Notes under the pieces: generated by a model
The model's input: only the letters and a program-made list of their open reading frames with translations
The model's database searches: none
Told to the model about the DNA's origin: nothing
NCBI RefSeq assembly: GCF_013408795.1
Contig: NZ_JACCCC010000001.1
Span: 6,386,001-6,450,000 of the forward strand
DNA length: 64,000 bases
DNA from: Spinactinospora alkalitolerans
Lineage (GTDB): Bacteria > Actinomycetota > Actinomycetes > Streptosporangiales > Streptosporangiaceae
Reading direction: 5' to 3'
Shown here: piece by piece, positions 29,532 to 63,083 of the stretch
Layout: the number at the start of each line of letters is the position of its first letter
Numbering within the stretch: the stretch's first letter is position 1
Program-made: the position numbers and the translations under genes

Positions 29532-29698
29532 CACATTTTCCCAGCTCAGAGCCTGGTTCTCGATCACGAGAGCCGGGCTCTTGATCGTTTGCCCGTCATT
29601 CGTCCGTGCGGACGGGACGGTCGTGTCCGTCAGGGCACGGACGGGACCGTCCGTGGACGGCACCGGGCGGACCGGTGGCACTGGATTTCGAGCGTGGA

Positions 29699-29941
29699 TC
29701 ATTGTCCGGATTCCGTTACTGTCGGTGATTCTCTGTTCGGGATGGGAACGTTCAGCAGCCGCAGGATCTCCGCCGTCGGGACGCGGTAGGTGTCGCCGTA
29801 GCGGATGACCGCGCAGGGGAACTCTCCGCGCCTGGCGAGCTCGTAGGCCATGGTGCGTCCCATGTTCAGGGCCTGCGCGGCCGTCATCAAGTCCACGGCC
29901 GCGGGCAGGGCGTAGAGCTCGACGATGGTCAGCGGCCTCAC
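29699..29941 (-). CDS. Excisionase-like helix-turn-helix protein
   Basis: An 80-residue protein with a MerR/excisionase-type winged helix: DLMTAAQALNMGRTMAYELA followed by GEFPCAVIRYGDTYRVPTAE, the pattern of the HTH_17 excisionase family. Such proteins direct integrase towards excision. GTG 29941 is the start. It lies 170 bp inside the left attachment site, and the integrase is at the far end. The collapsed second copy at 62.4 kb lacks this gene. Confidence 0.8.
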   Translation of the reverse strand: MRPLTIVELYALPAAVDLMTAAQALNMGRTMAYELARRGEFPCAVIRYGDTYRVPTAEILRLLNVPIPNRESPTVTESGQ

Positions 29942-29983
29942 CGACTGCCCCTCTGCCGAGGCAGCGGGCCGCTGTCGGGACGG

Positions 29984-30616: not shown

Positions 30617-30710
30617 GGAGAGCTTCCTTCTCGCTCGTGGGTTGCCGGGATGACGGAGACACGGACGGCTCCGGTCCGGCCGGTCCGATCGGTGGCGGGG
30701 TGTTCCGGCC

Positions 30711-31048
30711 TCAGGAGGCGGGGTGTGAGCGCAGGTGGGCCAGTGCGCGGTCGTTCAACCGCCGCTCCTGGGCCAACGCGGCCAGGACGGCGCTGACCAC
30801 CTCGGTGGCGTGGCCGACGCCGATGTCCCCGCCGATGGGGATGAGGCCGGTCGCGATCACCGCGCGGCGTGCGGTGGCGCGGGCTTGTTCGCGGCCCGAG
30901 CCGGTGCGGGTGCGCAGGTGCGGTTCCAGGGCGTCGACCATGGCGGGCGCGATCCGCTCCCAGTTCTCGCCACAGATCGCCCGGTAGCCGTCGGTGGCGC
31001 TTTCGACGACCGAGGGCTTGGGCCTGGAGCCGTGGGTCGCTTGCTCAT
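30711..31048 (-). pseudogene. Frameshifted small island gene
   Basis: A start with a strong ribosome-binding site (AGGAG, ATG 31048) reads MSKRPTAPGP and then loses sense. One base later, the neighbouring frame continues as KPSVVESATDGYRAICGENW through MVDALEPHLRTRTGSGREQA to the stop at 30711. Joined, the two give a compact protein of about 112 residues with a helical C-terminus. The shift lies near a CCC tract at about 31,018. Function unknown. ATG 30941 alone would give a 76-residue fragment. Confidence 0.55.
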
Positions 31049-31122
31049 CCGCGGGTCTCCTGACGAAGAGTCCACCGGGACCGTCTTGGGCCTGAGGCGG
31101 CCACCTCTGCCACTGTTCTTAC

Positions 31123-31145
31123 TATAGATATTCTATTCATCTATA
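31123..31145. promoter_or_regulatory. Inverted-repeat operator candidate upstream of the XRE gene
   Basis: TATAGAT and ATCTATA separated by 9 A+T-rich bases, in a sharply A+T-rich stretch between the minus-strand genes and the XRE regulator. It probably covers divergent promoters under phage-repressor-like control. Confidence 0.5.
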
Positions 31146-31246
31146 AACACAATCAGCGGTGCGTGTCGTCCCTGTGCCGACGTACTGTTCCGGCCTCCGG
31201 CTGGGGCAGGGTGGACAGCGAGTCGGGCGGGATGAGGAGTGCTGCG

Positions 31247-31714
31247 ATGGCGAGGCGGGGTGTGCCGGGTTTCCGGCCTCGGGTGCTGCGGGCCGCACGG
31301 GAGGGGGCCGGGTTGTCGGTGTCGGAACTGGCGCGGCGCACCGGACTGAACCACGCGATGGTGCTGCGTTATGAGGACGGGAGCGCGGCGCCGACGCCGG
31401 AGAACCTCGTCCTGGTGGCCGGCGCGCTCGATGCGGACCCGCGCGACTTCCTGGAGGAGGGCGGGCTGGCCACGCTGCGGGCCGCGCGGGGGCTGTCGCA
31501 GCAGGGCGTCGTCGCCGCGCTTCGCACCCCTGACCTGACGGTCGGGGCCTATCAGGCCCTGGAGTCGGGCCGGGTGCGGCGGCTGCGCCACAGCGACGCC
31601 GTGGAGCTGGCCAAGGTATTCCAGGTGAGCGTGGAGACGGTGGTCAAGGCCCATGAGTGGGACCTGGCCCAGAGCGATGCGCGGCGGGCCGGGAGGTCTG
31701 CGGGTCAGGGGTGA
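31247..31714 (+). CDS. Tandem-HTH XRE-family regulator
   Basis: A 155-residue protein with two successive Cro/C1-type helix-turn-helix domains: RAAREGAGLSVSELARRTGL with a YEDGSAAPTPENL tail, and RAARGLSQQGVVAALRTPDL with YQALESGRVRRL. ATG 31247 follows GAGGAG by 8 bases. It is divergent from the excisionase-side genes across the A+T-rich operator candidate, so it probably controls element maintenance or excision. Confidence 0.75.
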   Translation: MARRGVPGFRPRVLRAAREGAGLSVSELARRTGLNHAMVLRYEDGSAAPTPENLVLVAGALDADPRDFLEEGGLATLRAARGLSQQGVVAALRTPDLTVGAYQALESGRVRRLRHSDAVELAKVFQVSVETVVKAHEWDLAQSDARRAGRSAGQG

Positions 31715-32685
31715 GCGCGCTCGTTGCGGCGCAGGGAGAACGCGGACAGCCCGGTGGTGTCGATGCCGGCCCGGTCGGCGTAGGCGTGCACCAGGTCGTT
31801 GACGGCGCCTTGGTCGAGTTCCTCGGTGGGGGCCGTCACGCGGGCGCGCAGGTGCTCGTCGGCGGCCACGCGCACGGGTGACAAGTCGACGAAGCCGTTT
31901 GCCGACGGGTGCGCACCGGGCTCGTCGGCGACGTCGAGGAGTTCGCGCCACTGGACGAACGGCGCACACCGGGCAGTCCGGCGGTTGCGCGGAGGCGGGC
32001 ACCAGGAGCGGTTGGGGCGCGGAGTCGACATGCGGTGTCGACGTGTCGACCTGTCGAGCGGCCTCGACGGTCAGGGCCAGGAGCGGGTCGGGGCCCAGGC
32101 CTGTGGCGCGGGCGAGGGTGAGCCGGTCGCGCCGCCGTGCGGCGGCCTCGGGCCGGACGTCGGGGGGGGCAGTGCGGCCAGGAGCCGCCGGAACTCGGCG
32201 TCGGTGAGCGGCCGGGAGGCCGGCCTCCTGGTGGAGCCGCGGGCGCGCAGGAGGCGCAGCACGGCGGCGGCCGGCGGCCGGGTGGTGGGGGTGGGCAGGT
32301 CGTGGGCGGTGTGCACCGCGGCGATGGCGCCGCTCCACCGGGCGACGGCCGCGGAACTGTTGGCCGGACGCCCTGCGCCGGGGTCGGTCAGGTGGGCCGA
32401 GGCCAGGTAGAGCGCGACGTCACCGGGATCGGCGGGCAGCGCGGTCCTGCCGTTGCGCTCACACCAGACGCGCCGGCGCCGCCAGTCGGCCGCGTAGGCG
32501 CGCCGCGTGTTCGCGGACCGGCCGGCCAGGTGGGACCCCAGCAGGGCGAGTTCGTCCTCGACCTCAGGTGACGCGGCACGGGACGCCTCCCGCGGGACGG
32601 GGGCGAGGCGGTCCAGGACCGGACGGAGCCCGGGCGGCAGGGTCGCACGGACCTGCTCGTCGTGCGTGAGGGCCGGGACGGCCAC
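31705..32685 (-). pseudogene. Tyrosine recombinase remnant, frameshifted
   Basis: Three frames together give one recombinase. From 32685: LGSHLAGRSANTRRAYAADW and RPLTDAEFRRLLAALP (SAM-like N-terminal domain). A shift at the 8-G run 32162-32169 leads to RRDRLTLARATGLGPDPLLAL. A second shift at about 31,961 leads to FVQWRELLDVADEPGAHPSA. At the second point the copy at 62.67 kb has one G fewer and stays in frame. The catalytic end stops at FSLRRNERAHP without the HxxR and Tyr boxes. It could be a former XerD-like integrase of the element. Confidence 0.7.
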
Positions 32686-38992: not shown

Positions 38993-40486
38993 CTGCTCCC
39001 CGCACACGCGGGGATGGTCCGCACACTCTCTACCAGCACCTGATCGGCCGCCGCTGCTCCCCGCACACGCGGGGATGGTCCCATCCAGCCCTACATCCGC
39101 GACGAGGAGCGATACTGCTCCCCGCACACGCGGGGATGGTCCCGGGACGTAGGCCGGCAGGGTTTCGAGGGTCATCTGCTCCCCGCACACGCGGGGATGG
39201 TCCCACGTCCGATCCGGGATCCTGCCCGAGAGGCCACTGCTCCCCGCACACGCGGGGATGGTCCCTTGAGGACCCTCCCAGTCGGGGAGCCGCCCTTCTG
39301 CTCCCCGCACACGCGGGGATGGTCCCGGCGGAGACCCCGGTAAAGGCGTCCACATCATCTGCTCCCCGCACACGCGGGGATGGTCCCTCCGCCCGCTCCG
39401 CCTGCTCGGCGTGCCTGGCCTGCTCCCCGCACACGCGGGGATGGTCCCGAAGGCCACGGAGACGACTCGGCTCGAGTCGTCTGCTCCCCGCACACGCGGG
39501 GATGGTCCCCAGCCTCACCCGGCGCCTCCGCATCGGCCGCGCTGCTCCCCGCACACGCGGGGATGGTCCGGACCACCGTGGTCCACCGCCGCCCCAGAGA
39601 GGTCTGCTCCCCGCACACGCGGGGATGGTCCCGGCCACTGGTTCATGCGCGGCTGGTGCGCAGACTGCTCCCCGCACACGCGGGGATGGTCCCGTCATTC
39701 TAGGCGCACAGGAGTACGGACGCCGCTGCTCCCCGCACACGCGGGGATGGTCCCACAACCGAATTAGGTCACGAAAAGGTAAAGATCTGCTCCCCGCACA
39801 CGCGGGGATGGTCCCGGCGTGACGAACGCGTGGTCGCGGGCCCAGACCTGCTCCCCGCACACGCGGGGATGGTCCCTCATCCGACGTGGACCGGCTGGTC
39901 GACCTCGGCTGCTCCCCGCACACGCGGGGATGGTCCCGACCTTGGCGAACCCGTCCTTCACCCGGGTCGCTGCTCCCCGCACACGCGGGGATGGTCCCGC
40001 CTACTCCCAGGCGCTCTATGACGGCGTGGACTGCTCCCCGCACACGCGGGGATGGTCCCAGATGGCGCCCTATCGGGTGTCCGTCTCGTAGCTGCTCCCC
40101 GCACACGCGGGGATGGTCCCGCGATTCCATGTCGCGCCACTGCACCTGCGCGCTGCTCCCCGCACACGCGGGGATGGTCCCGGCGGCCTGCTTTTCGACC
40201 TCGGCGCCCACCACTGCTCCCCGCACACGCGGGGATGGTCCCTGCGCGGCGGTGAAGATGGCGTTGGCGACCGCCTGCTCCCCGCACACGCGGGGATGGT
40301 CCCGGCACGGTGGACCTCCGCACCGGCGATCTCCGCTGCTCCCCGCACACGCGGGGATGGTCCCCACGGCACCAGCATGCGCGACGCGATCGCCCGCTGC
40401 TCCCCGCACACGCGGGGATGGTCCCAACAGGCAGCAGGGAATGTCGTCCAACAACGACTGCTCCCCGCACACGCGGGGATGGGGCG
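38993..40486 (+). CRISPR. Type I-E CRISPR array, 25 repeats and 24 spacers
   Basis: 29-bp repeats starting CTGCTCCCCGC and ending GGGGATGGTCCC, with the palindromic CCCCGC...GCGGGG hairpin of type I-E repeats, at a 61-bp period (32-bp spacers). One spacer, the tenth, is 33 bp (39571-39603). Repeats 1 and 10 end in G instead of C. The last repeat (40458-40486) differs in its 3' end, which marks the old, trailer end, so transcription runs left to right. All spacers differ from one another and I found no match to them elsewhere in this window. Confidence 0.97.
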
Positions 40487-41967: not shown

Positions 41968-44439
41968 ATGAGTGGGAACGGTGAAGGCATCCCGACCAAC
42001 TGGGCGCGGGCGGCCTGGGGGAAGCTGGGCAACGGCAACACCCCGCATCCGCTGATCTGCCACGCGATCGACACCGCTGTGGTCGCCGAAGCGCTCTACG
42101 ACGTGGTCCTCGGACCGTACGTGCGGGAAGAGATCGAGCGCGGGCTCGCCCCTCTCGGCTCTGAGAAGGACCGACGCGCCTGGACGGCCGTGCTGTCCGG
42201 GCTGCACGACATCGGGAAACTGACCCCGGCCTTTCAGGCGGTCCGTATCGACCAGGCGGAGAAGCTGCTGGGAGAGATTGCGGTCGGCGCTCTGCGAGCC
42301 GTCCGGCCCGACCCGTTGCTCGGTCGCAGGGAAACCCACCACGGACTCCTGAGCGCGGTCCATATGGACGGCTGGCTCAAGGGCAGGAAGGCCTCATGGT
42401 CGGCGCGCTCCGCCCTTGTGGACCTGCTCGGCGGGCACCACGGATGGATCGTCGATCCCGACGAGGTCAAGAAGGCCACGCGGGCGAAGCGCCAACTCGG
42501 AGGCGTGAGGTGGGCACGTGCGCGCGATGATCTGATCACCGAGATCGCCCGGCTGTGGGAACTCGACCCGCACAGCGAGGGCTGGTCCGATGTCTCCCTC
42601 TCCACGGCGGCCGCTGTCGGCCTGGCCGGATTGACCATCCTCAGTGACTGGACCGCGTCGAGCAGGCCGCGCCGTGAATACACCCCCGAGCCGGGAGACC
42701 TGGCCGAGTACCGCAAGCGGGAGATCGGTCGGGTGGGGGAAACGCTGAACCGCGTCAACTGGACGCCGTGGCGCCCTCCGCGGAACACCTCGCACGCCGT
42801 GCTCTTCCCTCGTGACGACCGGCCGCGGCCGCTCCAGGAGAGGATTCGGGAGCTGCTCGCCGGCGTTGACCGCCCGGGCATCCTGGTGGTCGAGGCGCCG
42901 ACCGGCGAAGGCAAGACCAAGGCCGGGATTCAGGCCTGCGCCGCCCTGGTCGGTCGGCTCGGACTGGGCGGCATGTACGTGGCCACCCCCACCAGGGCCA
43001 CGGCCGGGCCCGTGCACGCCGAGGTGAACCGGGTGCTGAAGGCCACCGGGTCACCCCTGCGCGCGAATCTGCTCTACTCCGGGGCCGCCGCCGACCTGGA
43101 GCGGCAGGCGCAGGAGCGGAGGCAAGCCGGGAGCGGAGACCTGGACGAGCTGTCCCTCCTCATGCCGAAGGACGTCGGGCGGGAATGCTCCGACGCACTC
43201 AAGGAGGCGAGGTCGACCTTCACCCGGAAGAGGGCGCTCACCTTTCCGATCGGTGTGGGAACGGTCGACCAGGCGCTGATGGCCGCAACGCGGACCGGCC
43301 ACGTCGCCATGCGGCTCACCTCGCTGAGCAACAAGGTGCTGATGATCGACGAGGTGCACGCCTACGACGCGTACATGTCGAGGCTGCTGGACCGCCTGCT
43401 CTGGTGGTGCGGGCGCCTCGGTGTGCCGGTCGTGCTGATGTCGGCCACGCTCCCGGCCGCGCGGCGCGAAGAGCTCACCGCGGCGTGGAAAGCGGGCGCG
43501 GCGACCACACCGCCCGCGCCGGCCGTGGACGGCGCGGAGTCCAGCGCATGGCGTCTGACCTGGGTTGACGCAAGTGGACGCAGATCGGTTCCGGTCCCGG
43601 TATCCGCTGACAACCCGGCGCGCCGGGTGTCGGTGCAGCGCATCCCCGACAATTACGACGTCATCGCCGACGAGGTCGTCAGGCGCCTCCGTGACGGCGG
43701 ATGCGCCGCGGTCATCCACAACACGACCAGGCGGGCGACCGCAAGCCACGACCGGATAGCGCGGTGCCTGGAGGGCATGGAGCCCCGGCCGGAACTGCTG
43801 TACCTGGACGGGAAGACCGACCCGGACAAGCGTCGCGCGCTGGAGCGGCGCCTGGAGCGTCTGTGCGGCCCGGATTCGTCCGGTACGCGCCGTGCGATCG
43901 TCGTCGGGACCCAGGTGCTCGAACACGGCATTGACGCCGATTTCGATCTGGTGGTGACCGACCCATGCCCGGTGGACCTACTGGTTCAGCGGGCAGGCCG
44001 ACTGCACCGGCATGCCCGAGTCGAGCGCCCGATGGCGGTCGCAGACCCGCTGCTCCTGGTCGTGAGATCGGAGAAGGGGTTCACCTTCCCGCCGTACACG
44101 ACAGCTGTATACGCGGAGAGCCACCTGCTGGCGACCGAGTACGAGCTGTCCCTGCGGGATGCGATCTTGCTTCCGAAGGACATCCCCGAACTCGTCCACG
44201 CGGTCTATGCGGACGGGGACCGCATCCCGCAGGGGAGACTGCGCACCCGCTGGGAGGCGGCGCGGCGGAAGCGGAGCACGCGCGAGGAGATGGACCGCTT
44301 CGAGAGCGGCACTCAGTGCATCCCGATGCTCTGGGACACCGACGGCTTGATTCGCCTCACCAAGCGGTCTGTCAGGCCGCGGGTCCGGAAGAACAGCGGA
44401 AGGCGGGACATGGAGGAGCACGGCGGAGGCGCGCGGTGA
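41968..44439 (+). CDS. cas3: CRISPR-associated helicase/nuclease Cas3 (type I-E)
   Basis: Nuclease-helicase that degrades DNA marked by Cascade. The N-terminal HD nuclease has HAIDTAVVAEALYD and LSGLHDIGKLTPAFQ (HD at about residues 80-81). The superfamily 2 helicase has Walker A PTGEGKTKAG (about 311), the DEVH box (MIDEVHAYD, about 460), SATLP, and a C-terminal QRAGRLHRH motif VI. The 823-residue length is slightly short for actinobacterial Cas3, but no core motif is missing. ATG 41968. Its stop overlaps the next start as GTGA. Confidence 0.95.
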   Translation: MSGNGEGIPTNWARAAWGKLGNGNTPHPLICHAIDTAVVAEALYDVVLGPYVREEIERGLAPLGSEKDRRAWTAVLSGLHDIGKLTPAFQAVRIDQAEKLLGEIAVGALRAVRPDPLLGRRETHHGLLSAVHMDGWLKGRKASWSARSALVDLLGGHHGWIVDPDEVKKATRAKRQLGGVRWARARDDLITEIARLWELDPHSEGWSDVSLSTAAAVGLAGLTILSDWTASSRPRREYTPEPGDLAEYRKREIGRVGETLNRVNWTPWRPPRNTSHAVLFPRDDRPRPLQERIRELLAGVDRPGILVVEAPTGEGKTKAGIQACAALVGRLGLGGMYVATPTRATAGPVHAEVNRVLKATGSPLRANLLYSGAAADLERQAQERRQAGSGDLDELSLLMPKDVGRECSDALKEARSTFTRKRALTFPIGVGTVDQALMAATRTGHVAMRLTSLSNKVLMIDEVHAYDAYMSRLLDRLLWWCGRLGVPVVLMSATLPAARREELTAAWKAGAATTPPAPAVDGAESSAWRLTWVDASGRRSVPVPVSADNPARRVSVQRIPDNYDVIADEVVRRLRDGGCAAVIHNTTRRATASHDRIARCLEGMEPRPELLYLDGKTDPDKRRALERRLERLCGPDSSGTRRAIVVGTQVLEHGIDADFDLVVTDPCPVDLLVQRAGRLHRHARVERPMAVADPLLLVVRSEKGFTFPPYTTAVYAESHLLATEYELSLRDAILLPKDIPELVHAVYADGDRIPQGRLRTRWEAARRKRSTREEMDRFESGTQCIPMLWDTDGLIRLTKRSVRPRVRKNSGRRDMEEHGGGAR

Positions 44440-44801
44440 ACGATGACGACGACTGGGTTCCCACGCCCTATGACGACGGCATCATGGTCGTTCCGCTCTG
44501 GGAAGCATCGGACGGCCACCCCGCCACCCACCGCGGAACCCCCGTTGATCTCAGCGCAGACGAGCTTCCCGCGGAGACCGTGGCCGAACTCGCCGATTCC
44601 GCGGTCAACCTCACCCACCCGATCGATCTCGACCCGGCCGAACTGGCCACCCTTCGGGAAGTGCTGTCCGTCCCGGACGTCTTCGACCACTCCGGCTGGC
44701 TGGCCGACCACCACGCCCTCGTCCTGCACGGCGGCCGCCGGGACTTCGGAGGGTTCAGCATCGTCCACCACCCGCAGCGAGGGCTGGAGATTCATGAGTG
44801 A
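44436..44801 (+). CDS. Small unknown protein embedded in the cas operon
   Basis: A 121-residue acidic protein reading VNDDDDWVPTPYDDGIMVVP, with DLDPAELATLREVLSVPDVF in the middle and a C-terminal HHALVLHGGRRDFGGFSIVH. It overlaps cas3 by 4 bases and cas8e by 8, so it is translated as part of the operon. No such gene belongs to the minimal type I-E set. Possible roles are regulation of Cas3, a Cascade accessory, or an unrelated passenger; nothing in the sequence decides. Confidence 0.65.
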   Translation: MNDDDDWVPTPYDDGIMVVPLWEASDGHPATHRGTPVDLSADELPAETVAELADSAVNLTHPIDLDPAELATLREVLSVPDVFDHSGWLADHHALVLHGGRRDFGGFSIVHHPQRGLEIHE

Positions 44802-46560
44802 CACAGGAAGCCGGCGAGGGAGGGATGATCTGAGATCGCCAGATGAGGATGGCGGGAACCACCGGGGACCACAGCAACACGAAACTTACGATCTGCTCAG
44901 ATCGCTCTGGTTGCCCGCCGTTGCGCTGGACGGGCGGCTGTGTCAGGTCGGGTTGGTCGATGCGGTGCTGCGGGCGCACGAGCTGAGGTGGATCGACGCC
45001 GAGGCGCCGGTGGTCACCGCCGCGCTGCACCGGCTGCTCCTGGCCTTCGCGCACCGCGTCTACGGGCCCGGCGACGAGTCCGAGTGGGCGGAGCTGTGGG
45101 AGGCGCCCAGCCTCCCCGCCGGGCCGCTGGAGGCCTATCTGGATGATTTCGGGGACCGGTTCGACCTGTTCGGGGAGCGCCCCTTCTTCCAGACTCCGGG
45201 GATCCCCGACACCAAAATCGGTTCGGCGGCGCAACTCACCATGTACAGGGCCACGGGCAACAACGTCACCCTCTTCGACCACACGGTCGCGGAGGACCGG
45301 GTGGAGCTGCACCCCGCCGACGCCGCCCGCTGGCTCGTCACCGTGCAGGCCTACGACACGGGCGGCATGAAGACGCCGTTCGACACGGACAAGTCCTCTG
45401 AGCGCGGCCTGTGCAACCACTTCGCGACCCTCCTCGTGGAGGGGGCGACGCTGAAGGAGACGCTGCTCCTCAACATGCCGGTGTACGCGCCCGGGCGGGA
45501 GCGCCCGCACAACACCTTCCCCGGGGACCTTCCGATATGGGAGCGGGATGAGCCTACGGGACCGAAGCCGGTCAAGGAAGGGCCGCCGCCGGCCGGGTGG
45601 ACCGAACTGCTCACCTGGCCCTCCCGCCGTATACGCCTTCGCCCGGTCCGCCGCGGCACCGAGATCCGCGTCGACGGGGCCGCGATCCTTCCCGGGACAC
45701 GGCTGCGCGTGCCACTCTACGACGTCGAGAACATGGCCGCCTTCGAGCGGGATAAGCGCTCCAAGAAGGGCGCGAAGGGCAGGACCGGTGTCACCCTGGG
45801 GGAGCCGCGCCCGGTTGTGCTGGAGGACCTACGCGGTATCTGGCGGCACAGCAGGGAACTGCTGCTTCCAGCCCCCGAGCTGGGTGAGCGGATACGGCCG
45901 CGGACCCTCGACCACATCGCCGACATGGCGCGGCGGGAGCACATTCCCCCGGAGGCCGTCTACACCCTGCGGGTATTCGGCCAGCGGCTCGATCCGCAGG
46001 CCGGGGCGGTCCGTGCCTGGCTCCAGGAGTCGCTGCCGACACCAATCGCGCTGCTCCGCGCCGACCGGCGGCTGCCACAACTGGAGCAGCTGCTCGGGCA
46101 CGCCGTCGAGTTGGCGGACGGTGTCGGCAAGGAACTGGACCGCCTGGAGCGGGGGTATGCGGCGACGCTCGGGGAGCGGCTGTCCCGACGCGACGCGGAA
46201 AAGCGGCGACTTCTGACGCAGTGGTATTGGCCCGAGCTGGTGGCGCCGTTCGGAATGCTGCTGCAGGACCTGGGGGCGGTGCTCCACGAGACACCACCTG
46301 AGGAACCTCTGACCGACACTGAGGCCAGAGTGGCCGGCACCGTGATCGGGCTGTTCGGCGGCTGGAGCGATCGAGTTCGCCGCATCGCCGACCAGACCCG
46401 TCACCGCTGGGTCGACCGGTCGCCGCGCAAACCCGGACGGGATCTGATCGCCCTGGCGGATCACGACCGTGCGCTCAAGAGCGCCACCTCGCGCCTGTAC
46501 CACGAATACGGCCTGGCCGTCCGCGACTACTGGCCCGTCGGGCCGGAGGAGGATGAGTGA
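44794..46560 (+). CDS. casA: Cascade large subunit Cas8e (Cse1/CasA)
   Basis: Large subunit that recognises the PAM and recruits Cas3. The 588-residue protein has the Cse1 N-terminal pattern (WLPAVALDGRLCQVGLVDAV), the RFDLFGERPFFQTPG segment, a NNVTLFDH loop, and a helical C-terminal bundle. ATG 44794 overlaps the preceding gene by 8 bases; about 30 charged residues precede the conserved start, more than in the Escherichia coli protein. Confidence 0.93.
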   Translation: MSDTGSRRGRDDLRSPDEDGGNHRGPQQHETYDLLRSLWLPAVALDGRLCQVGLVDAVLRAHELRWIDAEAPVVTAALHRLLLAFAHRVYGPGDESEWAELWEAPSLPAGPLEAYLDDFGDRFDLFGERPFFQTPGIPDTKIGSAAQLTMYRATGNNVTLFDHTVAEDRVELHPADAARWLVTVQAYDTGGMKTPFDTDKSSERGLCNHFATLLVEGATLKETLLLNMPVYAPGRERPHNTFPGDLPIWERDEPTGPKPVKEGPPPAGWTELLTWPSRRIRLRPVRRGTEIRVDGAAILPGTRLRVPLYDVENMAAFERDKRSKKGAKGRTGVTLGEPRPVVLEDLRGIWRHSRELLLPAPELGERIRPRTLDHIADMARREHIPPEAVYTLRVFGQRLDPQAGAVRAWLQESLPTPIALLRADRRLPQLEQLLGHAVELADGVGKELDRLERGYAATLGERLSRRDAEKRRLLTQWYWPELVAPFGMLLQDLGAVLHETPPEEPLTDTEARVAGTVIGLFGGWSDRVRRIADQTRHRWVDRSPRKPGRDLIALADHDRALKSATSRLYHEYGLAVRDYWPVGPEEDE

Positions 46561-47206
46561 ACCGGTGACGGAGACCGCCAAGGATCCGCGATCGCAGAGC
46601 CATTGGCAGCGGCGGTCCGGCTATGTGGCCGAGCTCTACAAGTTCGGCAGGGCGTTGGAATCGAAGGACCGGCACCAGGTGGCCACGGCGCGCCGGACGC
46701 TCGCCAGGCTGCGCCGCAGCCTCGTCGACGATCGATTCCTTCTCGACGCCATGGCCATTGCCGATGAATTCGACCCGCCCAAAGGCGGGAAGCGGGACGA
46801 GACGGAGCCATGGCTCTTCACGGCCGGGCTGTACGCACTGCACCCGCTCTCGCCTCGGGACGGAGACCGAAGGCTCCCGCTCGGAACCGCCCTGCGCACC
46901 TACAGCGCACGAGCGTCCGTCCAGGCGCGCCTGCGGCAGCTGCTCGCCGCCGACTGGCCGACGTTGCGCAACCGCCTCCGCCAGGCGGTGCAAATGCTCG
47001 GCGGATCCGGGATCGCGCTCGACTACCGCACACTCCTCGACGACCTGGTCGTGCTCCACCGCGAGCCGATCGGCGGAGTCCGAGTGCACACCGTGCACCT
47101 GCGCTGGGCGAGCGACTTCCAACGTGGCGCCCGTAAGGACCGGTCCGACGACGGCGATGCCGGACCCGACCACGACACCGACGATGAAGCCGGAGACCTC
47201 TCGTGA
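46553..47206 (+). CDS. casB: Cascade small subunit Cas11 (Cse2/CasB)
   Basis: A 217-residue helical protein with LARLRRSLVDDRFLLDAMAI and the conserved C-terminal region DYRTLLDDLVVLHREP and VHLRWASDFQRGA, typical of Cse2. It forms the belly dimer of Cascade. ATG 46553 follows GGAGGAGG and overlaps casA by 8 bases. The C-terminal 20 residues are acidic. Confidence 0.9.
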   Translation: MSEPVTETAKDPRSQSHWQRRSGYVAELYKFGRALESKDRHQVATARRTLARLRRSLVDDRFLLDAMAIADEFDPPKGGKRDETEPWLFTAGLYALHPLSPRDGDRRLPLGTALRTYSARASVQARLRQLLAADWPTLRNRLRQAVQMLGGSGIALDYRTLLDDLVVLHREPIGGVRVHTVHLRWASDFQRGARKDRSDDGDAGPDHDTDDEAGDLS

Positions 47207-48369
47207 TCATCGAATTGCACCTGTTGCAGTCGTTCCCCGCCAGCAACCTCAACCGCGACGACGTGGGCCAGCCGAAGAGCGTCACCTTCGGCGGGGTCAC
47301 CCGCGGACGGATCTCCAGCCAGTGCCTCAAGCGTTCGGCCCGCGGCTTGTTCCCCCGATTCGGCCTCGGTGCCGATGAGAGAGGGGTGCGCACCAAGCGG
47401 CTGCTCCTCGCGACGGCCCGCATCCTCGACGGCACGAAAGGGGAGCCCACCGACGAGACCAAGGACATCGTCCGCGAGGCGCTCCGAGTGCTCGGCTTCA
47501 AGGTTACGGAGGAGGACCTCACCCAGTACCTCTTCTTCCTTGGTCGTGATGCCGCCGAACACCTCGCTGATTTCTGTCGGCAGCACCGGGACAGGTTGGA
47601 GAAGGCCGCCGCCGCGCGGCGTGGCGAAGGCGCGAAGAAGAAGGACGGCAAGACCAAGAAAGTCGGCCCCGACGCCGCCGCGGTCGAGGCGGCCCGACAC
47701 ATCCTCAGCGCCGGCCGCGCCGCCGACATCGCCCTGTTCGGTCGGATGATCGCCAACAACAGGGATTTCAACGTCGACGCCGCCTCCCAGGTCGCACACG
47801 CCGTCTCGACCCACGCCGTGACCACCGAGTTCGACTACTACACCGCCGTCGACGACCTCAAGTCAGCGGAGACCGACGAGGACGCCGGCGCGGACATGAT
47901 CGGCACCGTCGACTTCAACGCTGCCTGCTACTACCGCTACGCCAACGTCAACCTCGCCCAACTGGAGGAAAACCTCGCCATCCGCGACGACGAGGACGAC
48001 CTGGTCGAGCGCGCGACCAGCGCGTGGATCAAGGCGTTCGTGCAGGCCACTCCCAGCGGAAAACAGAACTCCATGGCCGCTCACACCCGTCCCGAAGCCC
48101 TGCTGGCCGTGGTCCGTGAGCACAGTGCCTGGAACCTCGCCAACGCCTTCCTCAAGCCGGTCGAGGGAACCGACATCATGGGGGACTCCACCGAGCGGAT
48201 GCTCAAGCACTTCACCGATCTGAACGCCTTCTACGGTGACGGCGAGATCAAGGCGGTGATCGGAGCCTCGCCGACGGGCGCCCTTCCCCACCTGGAAGCG
48301 ACGTCGACGGTCACCTCTCTCGGGGAGTTCACCGATCGCATCGTGGCGGCGGCCCGGGAGAAGCGGTGA
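47203..48369 (+). CDS. casC: Cascade backbone subunit Cas7e (Cse4/CasC)
   Basis: RAMP protein forming the six-subunit crRNA backbone. The N-terminus IELHLLQSFPASNLNRDDVG and GRISSQCLKRSAR are the Cse4 hallmarks; FNACYYRYANVNLAQLEEN and a C-terminal ASPTGALPHLEATSTV follow. A Lys/Glu-rich loop of about 30 residues (around residue 140) is inserted. 388 residues; GTG 47203 overlaps casB by 4 bases. Confidence 0.95.
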   Translation: MIIELHLLQSFPASNLNRDDVGQPKSVTFGGVTRGRISSQCLKRSARGLFPRFGLGADERGVRTKRLLLATARILDGTKGEPTDETKDIVREALRVLGFKVTEEDLTQYLFFLGRDAAEHLADFCRQHRDRLEKAAAARRGEGAKKKDGKTKKVGPDAAAVEAARHILSAGRAADIALFGRMIANNRDFNVDAASQVAHAVSTHAVTTEFDYYTAVDDLKSAETDEDAGADMIGTVDFNAACYYRYANVNLAQLEENLAIRDDEDDLVERATSAWIKAFVQATPSGKQNSMAAHTRPEALLAVVREHSAWNLANAFLKPVEGTDIMGDSTERMLKHFTDLNAFYGDGEIKAVIGASPTGALPHLEATSTVTSLGEFTDRIVAAAREKR

Positions 48370-49124
48370 CCACGGCGACGCTCGCACTGCGCATCGACGC
48401 GCCCATGCAGTCGTGGGGAGTGCGGTCGCGATTCACGAACCGCTTCACCGCCACCGAACCCACGAAATCGGGCGTGGTCGGATTGCTCGCCGCGGCGTGC
48501 GGCGTGGAGCGTACCGACGACGCCCGGATCCGGGAGCTGGCGGACCTGCGGATGGGGGTGCGCGTCGAACGCGAAGGGCTGCTCGAACGCGACTACCACG
48601 TCACCCAGGACGTCCCCAACACCAAGGGCAAGGAGCACCGCACCATCGAGAGTAACCGCTACTACCTGGCGGACGCGCTGTTCCTGGTGGTGGTCGAAGG
48701 CGCAGTGGAGACGGCGGAACGGCTGGACGATGCGGTGCGCAATCCCCATTGGCCGCTGTTCTTCGGCAGAAAGGCCTTCGTCCCCGCCGCGCCCCTCATC
48801 GAACGGGACAAGTGGCGCCGACGTCGGTGGGGGACCGGCGTCCACCCGGGGACTCTGGAGGAGAGGCTGGAGGAGCATCCGTGGCTGGAGAACCGGGATG
48901 AGCAGCGCAACGAGGTCGGCCTCGTCAACGGTGACGTCTGGCTGAGAACGGTGGCCGACGTCCGCCTCTCCGAGCAGTCCGACCGCACCTTCCCGGCGGA
49001 GCTCCGCCACGACCATCCCGAGTCCTTCGCGCACGGCGATCGCCGGTTCCGTTCCCGACCGGTGTGCGCCGGCCATGTCAAACTCAAAGACGCGATGATC
49101 ACTGGAGTCGATCCGTGTTCCTGA
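48366..49124 (+). CDS. casD: Cascade subunit Cas5e (CasD)
   Basis: RAMP protein holding the 5' handle of crRNA. Signature features are LALRIDAPMQSWGVRSRFTN and TEPTKSGVVGLLAAACGVER, then YYLADALFLVVVEG and LFFGRKAFVPAAPL. 252 residues; GTG 48366 overlaps casC by 4 bases. Confidence 0.95.
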   Translation: MTTATLALRIDAPMQSWGVRSRFTNRFTATEPTKSGVVGLLAAACGVERTDDARIRELADLRMGVRVEREGLLERDYHVTQDVPNTKGKEHRTIESNRYYLADALFLVVVEGAVETAERLDDAVRNPHWPLFFGRKAFVPAAPLIERDKWRRRRWGTGVHPGTLEERLEEHPWLENRDEQRNEVGLVNGDVWLRTVADVRLSEQSDRTFPAELRHDHPESFAHGDRRFRSRPVCAGHVKLKDAMITGVDPCS

Positions 49125-49840
49125 GCAGGATTCCCGTGAACGTCATGTCGCGGACCTTCCGGCGCGACCACGCCGATGTCCACGAGATGCACCGCACCCT
49201 GATGTCCGCGTTCGCCGAGGTGACCGATGGGAAGGCCGCGGCGAGACGGCACAACGGTCTGCTGTGGCGGCTGGAGGGCGACGGGCGTGTCCGGGTTCTC
49301 CTGGTACAGAGCCGTGAACGGCCCGACTGGACACGGCTGCCCGAGGGGTATGCGGCGTCCCGGGTGCAGGTGAAGTGCCTTCAACCCGTGCTGGCGGCGA
49401 TCCGGCCCGGCCGCCGACTGGCATTCCGTCTGGTCGCCAACCCGACCCGGAGCACGCCTCCCGTCGGCGACGAGCCCGGAAACCGGAAAAGGGGTAAGCG
49501 GGAACCGATCCACGAACCGGAGCAGCAGATTGAATGGTTGATCCGGCAGGGCGAGCGGCACGGCTTCGCCGTCCCGGCGGCCCCCGACGGCGCCCCCGAG
49601 GTCGTGGCATCCTCCACGCCCTCGCGCATTGGCCGCAGGCTCGACGACCGTCCCGATGCACGCCCTGACGCCCGCCTGAAGATCAGTGTGCTGCCGGTGG
49701 CCTACGACGGGCGCCTCATCGTCACAGACCCTGACGCTTTCACCGCCGCGCTGAAGGAGGGCCTCGGGCGTGCCAAGGCGTACGGGTGCGGTCTGCTCAG
49801 CCTGGCCCCCGACCGTCACCCGGCCCGGCAATCAGGCTGA
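49115..49840 (+). CDS. casE: CRISPR pre-crRNA endoribonuclease Cas6e (CasE)
   Basis: Endoribonuclease that cuts the array transcript in the repeat hairpin and stays bound to the 3' handle. Visible are VFLSRIPVNVMSRTFRRDHA at the N-terminus, HRTLMSAF, RHNGLLWRLE, and the C-terminal glycine-rich ALKEGLGRAKAYGCGLLSLA. GTG 49115 lies inside the end of cas5, giving 241 residues. It is the last cas gene; no cas1 or cas2 follows. Confidence 0.94.
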   Translation: MFLSRIPVNVMSRTFRRDHADVHEMHRTLMSAFAEVTDGKAAARRHNGLLWRLEGDGRVRVLLVQSRERPDWTRLPEGYAASRVQVKCLQPVLAAIRPGRRLAFRLVANPTRSTPPVGDEPGNRKRGKREPIHEPEQQIEWLIRQGERHGFAVPAAPDGAPEVVASSTPSRIGRRLDDRPDARPDARLKISVLPVAYDGRLIVTDPDAFTAALKEGLGRAKAYGCGLLSLAPDRHPARQSG

Positions 49841-54910: not shown

Positions 54911-55306
54911 ATGGATGTGATCGAGATCGATGACCTGAGGCTCCGATGCGTCATCGGTTGCAGCGACGAGGAACGGCGCGACCGCCAGGACGTGCTGGTG
55001 CAGTTGAGGGTCCGGGTGGACGCGCGGGCGGCCGGACACAGTGACGACCTGGCCGACGCCTGGAACTACCGGACCCCGACCAAGAGCGTCATCCGAGCGG
55101 CCGAAGGGAGGACCTGGTCCACCGTGGAGGCCCTGGCGGCGGAGATCGCCCGGATCGTCGTGGTGGAGCACCGCGCCTCACACGTGCGGGTCCGGGTCCA
55201 CAAACCCGGTGCCCTGCGGTTCTCGTCCAGCGTCGGGCTGGTCATCGAGCGCAGTATCGAGGACTTCGCGGTTGTTCCCTCCCGAGAGGTGGTGGCCTCC
55301 GCGTGA
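54911..55306 (+). CDS. folB: Dihydroneopterin aldolase
   Basis: Cleaves 7,8-dihydroneopterin to 6-hydroxymethyl-7,8-dihydropterin and glycolaldehyde. The 131-residue protein shows IEIDDLRLRCVIGCSDEERR (the GxxxxER family start), DAWNYRTPTKSVIRAAEG, STVEALAAEIARIV and VRVHKPGALRFSSSVGL. ATG 54911 follows AGAGG. First gene of an operon in which each of the next four genes overlaps its predecessor. Confidence 0.9.
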   Translation: MDVIEIDDLRLRCVIGCSDEERRDRQDVLVQLRVRVDARAAGHSDDLADAWNYRTPTKSVIRAAEGRTWSTVEALAAEIARIVVVEHRASHVRVRVHKPGALRFSSSVGLVIERSIEDFAVVPSREVVASA

Positions 55307-55911
55307 GCGTCAACGGGATGGTGGAGGAACGCCACCGGTTCATGCCCGAGACACCCCTGCCCGACGTCGAAGCCGCCGAGCGCGCGGCCGCGGCGCTCCT
55401 CCGGGCGCTCGGGGTCGACATCGAGACCGAGTCCACGGCGAAGACGCCGATCCGCATGGCCAAGGCCTACGTCGAACTGCTGACACCGCGCAGTTTCGAC
55501 CTGACGACCTTTCCCAACGACGAGGGGTACGAGGAGCTGCTGCTCCAGCGGGACATCCCGTTCATCAGCGTCTGCGAGCACCACGCACTGCCCTTCACGG
55601 GGCGGGCCACCGTCGGATACCTGCCGGGCGAGCGCATCGTGGGCCTGTCGAAGCTCGCGCGCGTCGTCGAACTGCTCGCCTGCCGTCCGCAGGTGCAGGA
55701 GCGCCTGACCAAGCAGATCGTCGGGTGGCTGGACGAGCGCCTGGCCCCTCGCGGGGTCGGTGTCGTCATCCGGGCCGAACACACCTGCATGACGCTGCGC
55801 GGCGTCCAGACCCCGGGGACCACGACGGTCACGTCGTCCCTGCGCGGCCTCCTGTTGGAGGACGACCGGACCCGGGGCGAGTTCTTCACCCTCGGCGGAG
55901 CCTCGCAATGA
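55303..55911 (+). CDS. folE: GTP cyclohydrolase I
   Basis: Converts GTP to 7,8-dihydroneopterin triphosphate. Zinc ligands are visible in SVCEHHALPFTG (Cys at about residue 91, His at about 93-94) and AEHTCMTLRGVQ; GLSKLARVVELLACRPQVQE is the usual core helix. 202 residues, normal for the type IA enzyme. GTG 55303 overlaps folB by 4 bases. Because folE sits in an island operon it may be a second copy dedicated to this pathway. Confidence 0.94.
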   Translation: MSVNGMVEERHRFMPETPLPDVEAAERAAAALLRALGVDIETESTAKTPIRMAKAYVELLTPRSFDLTTFPNDEGYEELLLQRDIPFISVCEHHALPFTGRATVGYLPGERIVGLSKLARVVELLACRPQVQERLTKQIVGWLDERLAPRGVGVVIRAEHTCMTLRGVQTPGTTTVTSSLRGLLLEDDRTRGEFFTLGGASQ

Positions 55912-58762: not shown

Positions 58763-60493
58763 GTGCTGGGGGACATCGGAGACGATCTGGGGCAGCGGGT
58801 CGCCGCTGCCGTCGGTGCCGCGTTCGACGTGGCATGCACGATCGAGGACGCGGTGGTCCGACCCTCGCAGCGCGAGGGAGTGGACTACCAGGTCAACGCC
58901 GCCATGGCGCTGGCCAAGCGACTCCGACGGCCCTCCCGTGAGATCGCCGAGGCCATCGTGGCGCACATCGACCTGGGCGGCATGGCCGAGAGCGTCGACG
59001 TGGCCGGGCCGGGGTTCGTCAACATCACCCTGTCCACCGCCTGGCTCGCCGACCGCACCGCTCGACTGGCCGCCGACGAGCGGCTGGGGTACCTCCCCGC
59101 CGTCGAGCCGCAGCGGGTCGTCATCGACTACTCCTCGCCCAACATGGCCAAGGAGATGCACGTCGGCCACCTGCGCTCGACCATCATCGGCGACTCCCTC
59201 GTGCGCCTGATGGAGTTCGCCGGGCACGAGGTCGTCCGCCAGAACCACATCGGCGACTGGGGCACCCCCTTCGGGATGCTCGTGGAGCATCTCATCGACG
59301 AGGGCCTGGCCGAACAGAGCTTCAGCATCGGCGACCTCAACGTCTTCTACCAGCAGGCCCGCACCAAGTTCGACGCCGATGCGGACTTCGCCGAACGCGC
59401 CCGCATGCGCGTGGTCGCCCTGCAGGCCGGCGACCCCGACACCCTGAAGCTGTGGGATCGGCTGCTGACCGAGTCCAAGCACCACATCGAGGCCGTCTAC
59501 GACCTCCTCGGCGTACGGCTCACCCCTGACGACTACAAGGGTGAGAGCACCTACCAGCCCTGGCTGGGCGACGTCTCCGACGAACTGCGCCGCCGCGGTA
59601 TCGCCGAGGACAGCGAAGGCGCCCTGTGCGTGTTCCTCGACGGCTTCACCGGCCGCGACGACCAGCCGGTGCCGCTGATCGTGCGCAAGCGTGACGGCGG
59701 ATTCGGCTACGACGCCACCGACCTGGCGACCATCCGCTACCGCGCCCAAGACCTCAAGGGCGACCACCTCGTCTACGTCGTCGGCGCACCGCAGGCGCTG
59801 CACTTCGCGATGATCTTCGCCGCCGCGCGCAAGGCCGAATGGGTCAGCCCGGAGACGACCACCACCCACGTCGGGTTCGGAAGCGTGCTGGGGCCCGACG
59901 GCCGCATGCTGCGCACCCGCGCCGGGGCCTCGCTCAAGCTCACCGACCTGCTCGACCAGGCCGTCCAACGCGCCGCCGGCCTCGTGGCCGAGCGCAGTGA
60001 CCTGCCCGAGGAGGAGCGGGCGCGCATCGCCCGCGCGGTGGGTATCGGCGCGGTCAAGTACGCCGACCTGTCCGTCGACCGAGACAAGGACTACGTCTTC
60101 GACCTGGACCGGATGCTGGCGATGGACGGCAACACCGCCGTCTACCTGCAGTACGCCCACGCCCGGATCCGTTCGATCCTGCGCCGCGCGGACCGGGTCC
60201 CCGAGCCCGGTGCCCCGGTGCGGCTGACCGAGCCGGCCGAACGCGACCTGGCGCTGCGGCTCGCCCGCTTCCCCGACGCGGTGCAGATGGCGATCGTCAA
60301 CCTGCAGCCGCACCGCCTGTGCACCTACCTGTTCGAGCTCGCGACGGCCTTCAGCACCTTCTACGAGAACTGCCCGGTGCTCAAGTCCGAGGGCGCCGTA
60401 CGCGAGTCCCGCCTCGCACTGGCCCTGCACACCGCCGCCGTCCTGAACCGAGGACTCGACCTGCTCGGGATCGACACCCCCGAACGGTTGTAG
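58763..60493 (+). CDS. argS: Arginine--tRNA ligase, island copy
   Basis: Class I synthetase charging tRNA-Arg. The 576-residue protein shows the HIGH-type site SPNMAKEMHVGHLRSTIIGD (about residues 125-144), QNHIGDWGTPFGMLVEHLI, a KMSKS region reduced to GRMLRTRAGASLKL, and the anticodon-binding C-terminus ending NRGLDLLGIDTPERL. The SPN(V/M)AKEMHVGH form resembles the Escherichia coli-type branch. It follows the SDR gene by 79 bp, is last in the operon and is followed by a terminator. As a core gene inside an island it is probably a second copy: resistance, or supply of Arg-tRNA to a pathway. Confidence 0.9.
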   Translation: MLGDIGDDLGQRVAAAVGAAFDVACTIEDAVVRPSQREGVDYQVNAAMALAKRLRRPSREIAEAIVAHIDLGGMAESVDVAGPGFVNITLSTAWLADRTARLAADERLGYLPAVEPQRVVIDYSSPNMAKEMHVGHLRSTIIGDSLVRLMEFAGHEVVRQNHIGDWGTPFGMLVEHLIDEGLAEQSFSIGDLNVFYQQARTKFDADADFAERARMRVVALQAGDPDTLKLWDRLLTESKHHIEAVYDLLGVRLTPDDYKGESTYQPWLGDVSDELRRRGIAEDSEGALCVFLDGFTGRDDQPVPLIVRKRDGGFGYDATDLATIRYRAQDLKGDHLVYVVGAPQALHFAMIFAAARKAEWVSPETTTTHVGFGSVLGPDGRMLRTRAGASLKLTDLLDQAVQRAAGLVAERSDLPEEERARIARAVGIGAVKYADLSVDRDKDYVFDLDRMLAMDGNTAVYLQYAHARIRSILRRADRVPEPGAPVRLTEPAERDLALRLARFPDAVQMAIVNLQPHRLCTYLFELATAFSTFYENCPVLKSEGAVRESRLALALHTAAVLNRGLDLLGIDTPERL

Positions 60494-60498
60494 GCATC

Positions 60499-60525
60499 GG
60501 GGGGACGACCTCCGGCCGTCCCCCC
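60499..60525 (+). terminator. Terminator of the pterin/argS operon
   Basis: 9-bp perfect stem GGGGGGACG / CGTCCCCCC with a 9-base loop, 6 bases past the argS stop. Confidence 0.8.
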
Positions 60526-60587
60526 CCTGTGTCCGTTGGTTTCACCCCTCCGAGTCAGTAGGGCTGTTCGGGATGGCGGCACTCCTG

Positions 60588-61941
60588 TTACTGAGCGGTG
60601 CGCACCGCGCCGGTCTTCGCCCGGTTGCGGATGCTGCTCAGCGCCTGGAGCGCCAGGTCGTCGGTGTCGGGAAGGGTGTGCAGGTAGCGCTGGGTGGTGT
60701 TGATGGAGGCGTGGCCGAGGCGCTCCTTGACGATCTGGAGGTCGGCGCCGCCGGCCAGCAGCCATGACGCGTGAGCGTGGCGCAGGGATCTCGGGGTGAT
60801 CTCCCTGGGGATTCCGGCGGCCTCGCGTGCGGGGTTCCAGATGTTGGCTCGGAACCAGTCGCCGGGGATGTGCCCGTCGGTCTCGACCCGGCGTCGGCGG
60901 CGAGGGCGGTCCTTGCTCAGCGCCCGCCGGGTGGCCCGGTAGTGGGCAAATGCGGTGCGGCAGTGTTCGCAGCGGCATTTGCCACTGGTGTAGGCGGTGG
61001 TGGTGCCGTGTGCGTACCGCCTGCCCCGCTCGTTCGGCTCGGTGCGGCCGAGGTCTCCCTCCGGCAGGCCGGGGATCGGGGCGTCGCCGGGTGGGGGGCA
61101 TCTGGAAGAGCAGGTCGTCGTCTTCGATGCCGTTGGCGAGGACGAACGCGGCGATCCTGGTGACCAGAGGGCGCTGGAGCTTCAGTCGCCGGAACTCGCC
61201 GTCCTCGGGATAGTCCTTGACCGGGAAGCGCCGCCCGTCCGGGTGGTATTGCGGCTGCACCTTCACCACGGCTCGGCTGACGGTGAGCATGCAGGTCGGC
61301 CGGTGGAGGTCCTTGGGGCGCAGTTCGGTGAGTTCGCCCCACCTCAGCCCCGTCTCGATCTCCACCTCGACCAGCAACCTGAAGCGCTCGCCCTCGATCT
61401 CCCGGTAGAACGCGTCGAACTGCTCCGGTGTGATGATCGTCAGTGGCCTCTTGCCGACGGTGGGCAGGACCACACCCTTGCACGGATGGAAGAAGACGAT
61501 CTGGTTGTACAGGGCGGCGGAGAAGATCGCGCTGAGCACCGTCGTCATCCGCTGGATGCTGGAGGCGGCGAGCCTCTTCTTCTGGCAGGTGCGGACCCAC
61601 TCCTGCACGTGGCTGGGCTGGATCTCGTTCATGCGCATCCTCCCGAACTCCGGAAGGATGTGCCTGTGGATGAGGTAGGTGACGTTCTGCCTCGTGTTGG
61701 TCTCCAGGACGTGGTTGGGCAGCCATGTGTCGACGACGTATTCGGCGAAGCGCCGCCGGCCGTGGCTGAGGCTGGTGATGCGTCCTTCGGCGGTCTTGGC
61801 CTCGGCGCGCTGCCACGCCTTGTCGGCCTCTCTCTCGGTGGCGAAGGTGCCGGCCGACCGTTCGCGCCCCTTGATGTCGGTGTAGCAGGCCGTGAGCCTG
61901 ACCGCGCCGTGCTTGCCCATGCGCTTCTTGCTGAACCCCAC
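60588..61941 (-). pseudogene. int: Tyrosine integrase of the island, read in two frames
   Basis: From GTG 61941 the first frame gives an AP2-like arm-binding start, the SAM-like core-binding domain (NEIQPSHVQEWVRTCQKKRL) and the first catalytic arginine (ETGLRWGELTELR). At the G6 run 61093-61098 the sense moves to another frame, which continues through a small Cys cluster ([13 protein letters not shown]), [16 protein letters not shown] and [16 protein letters not shown] with the tyrosine nucleophile, to TAA 60588-60590. One base fewer in the run restores a single protein of about 450 residues. It lies 385 bp inside the right attachment site. Confidence 0.85.
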
Positions 61942-62326
61942 GCCGTCACGCCCCCTCGCTCCTGTGCGTGGCCGTCCCTGAGGCACCGACGGAGATCGGC
62001 GGTGCCTCGCGGCGTCGGCGACTCCCCGGACGAGCTCCTACGGGCGGGGAAGGGCGGAAAGCGGTGACTCGTGACGGGACCGGAGTCTCAGCGGAGAGGT
62101 AACGGAGTGTGATCCTGTCCGGCAAGGGAAAAGGGATGGTCGGGCGGTGGAACGGCGCCTGGGCGGGAAGCCGCGGCCTGTCCGTGATCTGTCCGTGGCA
62201 GCATCCGACACGCACCCCAGCCGGGCGGTAGCAGGCGGACAGCTTATGGCGCGATGACCAGGGAAAACATGCGGATTCGCGAACTTCTTCGCCGGGGGAG
62301 CGAGTCGGCCGTTCATCCTGACAAGA
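61942..62326. other. Gap between integrase start and right attachment site
   Basis: 385 bp without a convincing gene. It probably holds the integrase promoter and arm-type binding sites, but I find no clear repeated arm sequence. Confidence 0.4.
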
Positions 62327-62355
62327 ATGAGGCCCCAGGTTCAAGTCCTGGTACG
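62327..62355 (+). other. Island right attachment site (attR core)
   Basis: Perfect repeat of the 29-bp tRNA-Ile core at 29499-29527. The sequence before it does not form a tRNA, and the acceptor end has one change (CGTCC for CGCCC), so no second functional tRNA exists here. Confidence 0.85.
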
Positions 62356-62888
62356 TCCACACATTTCCCCAGCTCAGAGCCTGGTTCTCACGAGTGAGAG
62401 CCGGGCTCTTGCTTGTTTGTCCGTCATTCGTCCGTGCGGACGGGGCAGTCGTGTCCGTCAGAGCACGGACGGGCACCGTTGTACCGCCCTTCAGCGGTCC
62501 CGTGTCCTTCCCCTGCACCGATACGTCTGCGGCGGACGGCGCCGGGCCGCCCTCGGTCGGGGACTCCTCCTGCTCGTCGCTGTGCCGGGTGCCCCTGAGA
62601 AGGGCGAGCAGGCGGACGGGTGCGCATCGGGCTCGTCGGCGACGTCGAGGAGTTCGCGCCACTGGACGAACGCGCACACCGGGCAGTCCGGCGGTTGCGT
62701 GGAGGCGGGCACCAGGAGCGGTTGGGGCGCGGAGTCGACATGCGGTGTCGACGTGTCGACCTGTCGAGCGGCCTCGACGGTCAGGGCCAGGAGCGGGTCG
62801 GGGCCCAGGCCTGTGGTGCGGGCGAGGGTGAGGACGAGCCGGTCGCGCCGCCGTGCGGCGGCCTCGGGCCGGACGCCCTGCGCCGGGC
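62356..62888 (+). repeat. Collapsed remnant of a second island left end
   Basis: Beyond the attachment site the sequence continues as the island's own left end, not as chromosome. In order it matches about 29,532-29,645, then 30,174-30,317, then 31,903-32,150 and finally about 32,364-32,385, with the intervening parts missing. Junctions fall at short shared words such as GACGGG and GGCCGGACG. The excisionase gene and most coding parts are lost; a piece of the tyrosine recombinase remnant (PPDCPVCAFVQWRELLDVAD) survives. Confidence 0.8.
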
Positions 62889-63083
62889 TCAGCGCGCAGG
62901 CTGGGGATATGTGGTGCTGGACGGCACCCTAATCGCGATCGACCGGGCGGGTGCCGACCGGTCCTTCTACTCCGGCAAGCACAAAAAAGCACGCCGTGCA
63001 GGTCGTGGCCGCCCCGGGCGGCACACCGCTGTGGACCCCAGGCTCGTCTCCCGGATCGATGCACGACCTGGCGATGGCCAGAG
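62886..63083 (+). pseudogene. IS transposase fragment (IS5-type DDE)
   Basis: GWGYVVLDGTLIAIDRAGAD and RSFYSGKHKK, then in another frame HAVQVVAAPGGTPLWTPGSS and GSMHDLAMAR, the first catalytic block of DDE_Tnp_4-type transposases (LDGT). A run of six A at 62993-62998 shifts the frame. Both ends of the gene are missing and no terminal inverted repeats are recognisable, so it is a dead fragment at the edge of the remnant element. Confidence 0.7.

Follow-up and report, generated by a model that had tools for sequence, protein, structure and literature searches.

A decayed second left end behind a tRNA-Ile gene suggests stacking and wear of integrated elements in an actinomycete

Immediately to the right of the attR of a genomic island in an actinomycete, the left end of that same island recurs as four collinear pieces, separated by three deletions (62317–62890). 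We read this remnant as the left end of an earlier element that would have arrived by site-specific tandem accretion at the 3´ end of a tRNA-Ile gene and then decayed, with a probability of about 0.8. Elements sharing one tyrosine integrase and the 3´ part of tRNA-Ile (GAT) would have integrated one after another, each newcomer restoring the tRNA and shifting its predecessor outward. The present island (29533–62317) would be the late arrival, and 62317–62890 would stem from an older element with a very similar left end, acquired separately rather than copied from the present island. Three deletions would have stripped this older element of xis and of the bulk of its left module, two of them having arisen between short direct repeats by illegitimate recombination or replication slippage. 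An IS5-type fragment would then have become attached to what remained, and the right end and distal att would have disappeared.

Results

A tRNA-Ile gene and a second copy of its 3´ part

The window, that is, the whole stretch of 64,000 bp analysed here, comprises bases 6386001–6450000 of a single-contig genome of 6.68 Mb that is 99% complete. Upstream of its tRNA-Ile gene, the chromosome is syntenic with that of the compared relatives (approximately 70–92% DNA identity over up to 15 kb), and downstream the DNA is variable in all relatives compared, which identifies the tRNA gene as an integration hot spot. The nearer island, of about 33 kb (29533–62317), is bounded on the right by a second copy of the 3´ part of the tRNA. 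The att copies are located at 29487–29532 and 62317–62360, and both then run into island left-end DNA. Homology is expected to continue in this way through the att repeat into left-end sequence, because the attR of one element meets the attL of the next. The features concerned are:

29458–29532, plus strand: tRNA-Ile (GAT), called by ARAGORN, the integration target; its 3´ part is attL from about 29487, and 46 bp of this part are repeated as att in relatives
29536–29645, plus strand: left flank behind attL, with a terminator hairpin (−29 kcal/mol, z −5.65) and GTCCGTC-like repeats seen in an alignment of 18 sequences
29699–29941, minus strand: xis-like helix-turn-helix gene, 80 aa (HTH_17, E 3e-7; weak PHROG excisionase match)
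30148–30616, minus strand: unknown gene, the 3´ part of which corresponds to remnant piece 2 (a relative in genome G025 at 52%)
31705–32685, minus strand: tyrosine-recombinase-like gene, island copy, broken by frameshifts and lacking 6 bp (Pfam Phage_integrase in homologues)
60361–61986, minus strand: tyrosine integrase gene of the nearer island, with a frameshift near 61090 that puts the catalytic part in another frame (Pfam, N-terminal domains only)
62317–62360, plus strand: middle att, shared by the nearer island (as its attR) and the remnant (as its attL), with 3 mismatches to the tRNA in 44 bp

The GTCCGTC-like repeats behind attL are possible integrase arm sites. The xis-like gene, so called from its HTH_17 domain and its position, is also found behind tRNA-Ile in G025, G085, G107 (twice), G118, G133 and G298. 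The integrase gene of the window is placed about 330 bp to the left of the middle att, and the same layout of integrase and att is seen in G107, G183, G298 and G320. The intact integrase of G107 (473 aa) matches the window gene in two frames, 61941–61099 and 61085–60606. The frameshift near 61090 adjoins a run of six G and may be a sequencing error. The integrase of the nearer island being frameshifted, the whole stack is probably frozen. Further within the island, an arginyl-tRNA synthetase and a GTP cyclohydrolase I are encoded (58763–60493 and 55303–55911), along with a methyltransferase, a hydrolase and a hexapeptide transferase; together these are possibly biosynthetic cargo.

Four pieces of the island left end and their junctions

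BLAST of the right end against the window resolved 62317–62890 into four pieces of the island left end (29489–32385), in the same order and on the same strand, as the original prediction had it. The matches pair 62317–62479 with 29489–29650 (89.6%, E 4.5e-57), 62468–62641 with 30173–30347 (E 1e-70), 62612–62875 with 31901–32159 (95.8%, E 4e-121) and 62868–62891 with 32362–32385 (E 2e-4). The complete set occurs once in the 6.68-Mb genome, where other matches are weak and scattered (best E 2e-5). With the junctions (J1 to J3) placed, the features are:

62361–62473, plus strand: piece 1, the flank behind att, which includes the terminator hairpin and differs from 29533–29645 by 13 substitutions in 113 bp; att repeat and piece 1 together, 62317–62473, match 29489–29645
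62468–62611, plus strand: piece 2, matching 30173 to about 30317 (2 substitutions in 133 bp)
62615–62875, plus strand: piece 3, part of the recombinase-like gene (itself on the minus strand) in one open frame, matching 31904–32159 (3 substitutions in 246 bp and two indels)
62867–62890, plus strand: piece 4, matching 32362–32385
62911–63071, plus strand: inner section of a transposase gene of the IS5 family, linked to the remnant (70–76% DNA similarity to transposases of Streptomyces plasmids)

Piece 4 is the weakest of the four and the least certain, with only about 12 bases beyond a 9-bp overlap.

Deletions of about 530, 1590 and 210 bp with junctions at short shared words had been proposed. 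The sizes are borne out, at 533 bp for J1, approximately 1585 bp for J2 and 211 bp for J3, and the shared words stand for two of the three junctions. J1 (62468–62473) falls on the 6-bp word GACGGG (29640/30173), and J3 (62867–62875) on the 9-bp word GGCCGGACG (32151/32362). At J2 (approximately 62608–62616; about 30317–30320/31904) there is no exact shared word beyond a few bases and at best a fuzzy 4-bp overlap. With random junctions in the same DNA, at least 6 bp are shared in 0.4% and at least 9 bp in 0.02% of cases; the microhomology at J1 and J3 exceeds this chance level, as it does in microhomology-associated deletions. The deletions had also been described as ordered, and the sequence holds nothing that dates them relative to one another. 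The IS fragment said to follow is present in the form of 62911–63071, assigned to IS5 by DNA similarity, its short readings giving no match in Pfam.

Repeated element ends are a classic trap in assembly, and the four pieces could in principle reflect ends that were mis-joined. We regard this as very improbable for a single-contig genome of this completeness, in which repeats of 130–260 bp are easily spanned by long reads. Moreover, the right-hand copy has substitutions, indels and microhomology junctions of its own, which are not made by mis-joining identical repeats.

The terminator hairpin is kept in both copies (−29.0 and −30.1 kcal/mol), and beyond it the remnant is likely to be without present function. 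A plasmid collection searched with the island left end gave no match, and with the remnant a single one of 78%, confined to the tRNA-derived section and the adjoining flank; a 20-base query from piece 2 had no match in the genome collection. On the far side, no distal att of the older element rises above chance level in 62401–118999 of the extended sequence (56 kb rightward), and no integrase homologue or fragment marking the old right end was found right of 62320 in the 56 kb searched.

Relatives set the direction of change

Two copies alone give no polarity, and the right-hand copy might in principle be the original short form, with three insertions gained by the island left end. Comparison with relatives shows the changes to be losses from the right-hand copy. 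Behind tRNA-Ile in G025, G085, G107, G133 and G298, the DNA is colinear with the window from 29489 to about 29920–29961, including the segment lost at J1 and the xis-like gene that J1 has removed from the remnant. The recombinase-like gene, which J2 and J3 interrupt in the remnant, runs unbroken through the J3 segment in G317, G318, G320 and G133. With the J1 segment and the recombinase-like gene intact in relatives, it is the right-hand copy that lost DNA. In G025 the order is att, xis, unknown gene, HTH gene and recombinase, with DNA between them. The segments that the short form would have to lack at the outset thus consist of genes whose presence and order are conserved among relatives, and J3 interrupts a gene that is continuous elsewhere; an original short form is hardly credible and was rejected.

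The island copy of the recombinase-like gene carries changes of its own. It is frameshifted at an inserted G (about 31962), where the original prediction rightly saw an open frame surviving in the remnant, and at a G tract (about 32163–32170). At the position of the inserted G, translation continues in a single frame in intact relatives (RDRLVLTLARGTGLGPDPLL...CAFVHWRE) and likewise in the remnant (RDRLVLTLARTTGLGPDPLL...CAFVQWRE), and the island copy is out of frame. Elsewhere in the gene, the island copy lacks 6 bp that both the relatives and the remnant retain. Judged from these sequence comparisons, the remnant is ancestral at both the inserted G and the 6-bp indel, and the island copy of the gene would therefore have decayed after the two copies separated.

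As to the gene itself, homologues at 41–43% carry Phage_integrase. Its relatives in several genera (L039, L040, L048, L063) seem to be without active-site residues; those in G317, G320, G025 and G133 stop near the motif that holds the active-site histidine and arginine in true recombinases, and the tyrosine part is absent. A dual-specificity-phosphatase-like gene sometimes adjoins them. In G317 and G320 (L039, L040) the recombinase-like gene is far from tRNA-Ile, which shows that this module is not bound to the tRNA.

Uneven divergence between the two copies

The two copies differ by 13 substitutions in the 113 bp behind att (11.5%) and by 5 in the 379 bp of the inner pieces (1.3%; Fisher p 8e-6, or p 0.002 with the hairpin loop counted as one event). 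A single divergence time does not explain this contrast, and the att flank and the inner pieces may not be of one simple history.

The contrast bears on whether the older copy is a duplicate of the present island, produced by re-integration of an excised copy or by unequal exchange between direct att repeats, and decayed in place. The few substitutions and two indels of the inner pieces would suit such an origin, the nearest relatives elsewhere being only about 70–76% alike, but the att flank has diverged more than a simple copy should have, barring a later exchange of the flank. A simple duplicate would not predict uneven divergence, and exchange of att flanks between stacked elements would; we consider duplication unlikely.

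In G107 (L050), two att flanks in tandem show no difference in the 128 bp compared, although the xis-like genes behind them differ, which suggests exchange between stacked elements. By analogy, the remnant itself may be chimeric, with piece 1 and pieces 2–4 derived from different elements and joined at J1, or through homologous exchange of att flanks in a longer former tandem, e.g., when an element in between was lost. Both the uneven divergence and the flanks of G107 point this way. However, the remnant flank is nearer to the island flank (80% over 128 aligned bases) than to that of any relative (47–69%), and fast change of a non-coding hairpin loop could explain part of the divergence. We put this forward tentatively, as a refinement of tandem accretion and decay rather than its opposite.

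Tandem att copies in relatives

That related elements accreted in tandem and later collapsed had been proposed from the window, and the accretion is supported by relatives in other genera that carry several att copies behind tRNA-Ile and left ends in tandem. These genomes were picked since a first search suggested two copies, and their number is not a frequency. Of three att copies in G107, one is at the tRNA, and the others follow at distances of 8.1 kb and 47 kb. An xis gene comes after each of the first two, which makes a tandem of two left ends, and the intact 473-aa integrase adjoins the third. In G183, three copies fall within 37 kb, in sequence on which no tRNA was called, and G305, G211, G320 and others have two. 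The window, too, has the marks of tandem accretion: element ends joined at copies of the same att and an integrase, here frameshifted, beside att.

A second type I-E CRISPR-Cas system farther right

The nearer island contains a CRISPR-Cas system:

38993–40482, plus strand: CRISPR array of the nearer island, 61-bp period
41968–49840, plus strand: type I-E cas genes of the nearer island, namely cas3, cas8e, cas11e, cas7e, cas5e and cas6e (PADLOC, Pfam)

A second type I-E system is located beyond the window, at positions equal to 76574–85812, where cas3, cas8e, cas7, cas6, cas1 and cas2 were checked by homology. From its gene content it is apparently complete. Its arrays lie at about 76196–76561 and 85832–87648, and system and arrays together occupy the equivalent of 76196–87648 (G000:C1:6462196-6473648). 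The two systems, about 37 kb apart in one genome, share only 31–36% protein identity. cas1 and cas2 are absent beside the cas genes of the nearer island, and those of the second system, used as queries, found no homologue in the island; spacer adaptation of the nearer system might depend on the other one.

Relatives of the second system in other genera (73–90% protein identity) immediately follow tRNA-Ile in G295 and G320, and in G298 the distance from the tRNA is about 80 kb. An integrase and att come next in two of these genomes, G320 and G298, and the integrase of G298 is apparently intact. In the source genome that integrase and att are missing, and the array is directly followed by a gene (87791–89044) that is found right of att in G320. 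The arrangement in G320 (L043, G320:C1:4471131-4484080) is a 12.8-kb att-to-att unit behind tRNA-Ile; it contains a type I-E CRISPR-Cas system, cas1/cas2 included, together with an integrase gene that a single break divides.

The original prediction took the second element to be reduced to the fossil at 62317–62890. This is not supported for the site as a whole, the homology of the second CRISPR-Cas system to systems at this tRNA in relatives implying that at least one more old layer survives. Between remnant and second system are approximately 13–14 kb with genes for a short-chain fatty acid transporter, an AMP-binding enzyme, a thiolase, an MFS transporter and others. The DNA from 63288 was considered as displaced chromosomal DNA: in its first 6.6 kb, only the first gene has distant relatives (66–71%), and there is no syntenic block in 13 relatives. 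A reasonable order of layers is the CRISPR-Cas layer, then the remnant's element, then the present island, the first two being ordered by position; this would not imply that remnant and second CRISPR-Cas belonged to a common element.

Discussion

The stacking and decay of islands is a described process. In the ICESt1–ICESt3 family, CIMEs are reported to arise by tandem integration at one att site and decay by deletion (Pavlovic et al., 2004, as cited in PMC3218068, PMC3146451 and PMC5704250), and in a survey of Streptococcus salivarius it was always the most decayed elements that lay at the greatest distance from the target gene (PMC7563491). The tRNA-Ile site resembles this family in its single att site, tandem arrangement, decay by deletion and placement of the most decayed element furthest from the target gene. 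It differs in that the remnant has the left att only, whereas a CIME in the strict sense keeps attL and attR, in its actinomycete host, and in that no conjugation genes were recognised among the products checked.

Closer in host are the AICEs, for which tandems are described at tRNA-Lys in Frankia and tRNA-Arg in Streptomyces avermitilis (Ghinet et al., 2011; PMC3218068). These too are actinomycete elements with a tyrosine integrase stacked in a tRNA 3´ end, and the present island has the tyrosine integrase and xis-like gene at a tRNA gene that characterise them. No replication initiator or FtsK-type transfer (rep/tra) domains were found among the island proteins scanned, a subset of the ORFs. 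The Frankia pair, in contrast to the remnant described here, is complete, and its excision has been demonstrated. Stacking behind one RNA gene is also described for the ssrA islands of Dehalococcoides, which are numerous, each marked by a direct repeat, and some of which are without integration modules (McMurdie et al., 2011; PMC3146451). The likeness lies in the stacking and the direct repeats; a serine recombinase and tmRNA are involved there, and a tyrosine integrase and tRNA-Ile here.

What is slightly unusual here is the presence of two different CRISPR systems at the same spot. One conceivable generalisation, which we offer with considerable reserve, is that integrase-bearing elements repeatedly deliver type I-E systems to tRNA-Ile (GAT) in this actinomycete family and stack different ones in tandem. 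The 12.8-kb unit of G320 would then be a compact mobile CRISPR-Cas element, and the remnant the seam between two such layers.

In conclusion, the DNA behind this tRNA-Ile gene is a readable record of the build-up and wear of tRNA-linked islands in actinomycetes, in which junctions, polarity and relatives make accretion followed by decay testable at the level of single bases. The stack likewise accounts for the presence in one genome of two very different type I-E systems, one of them without adaptation genes of its own.
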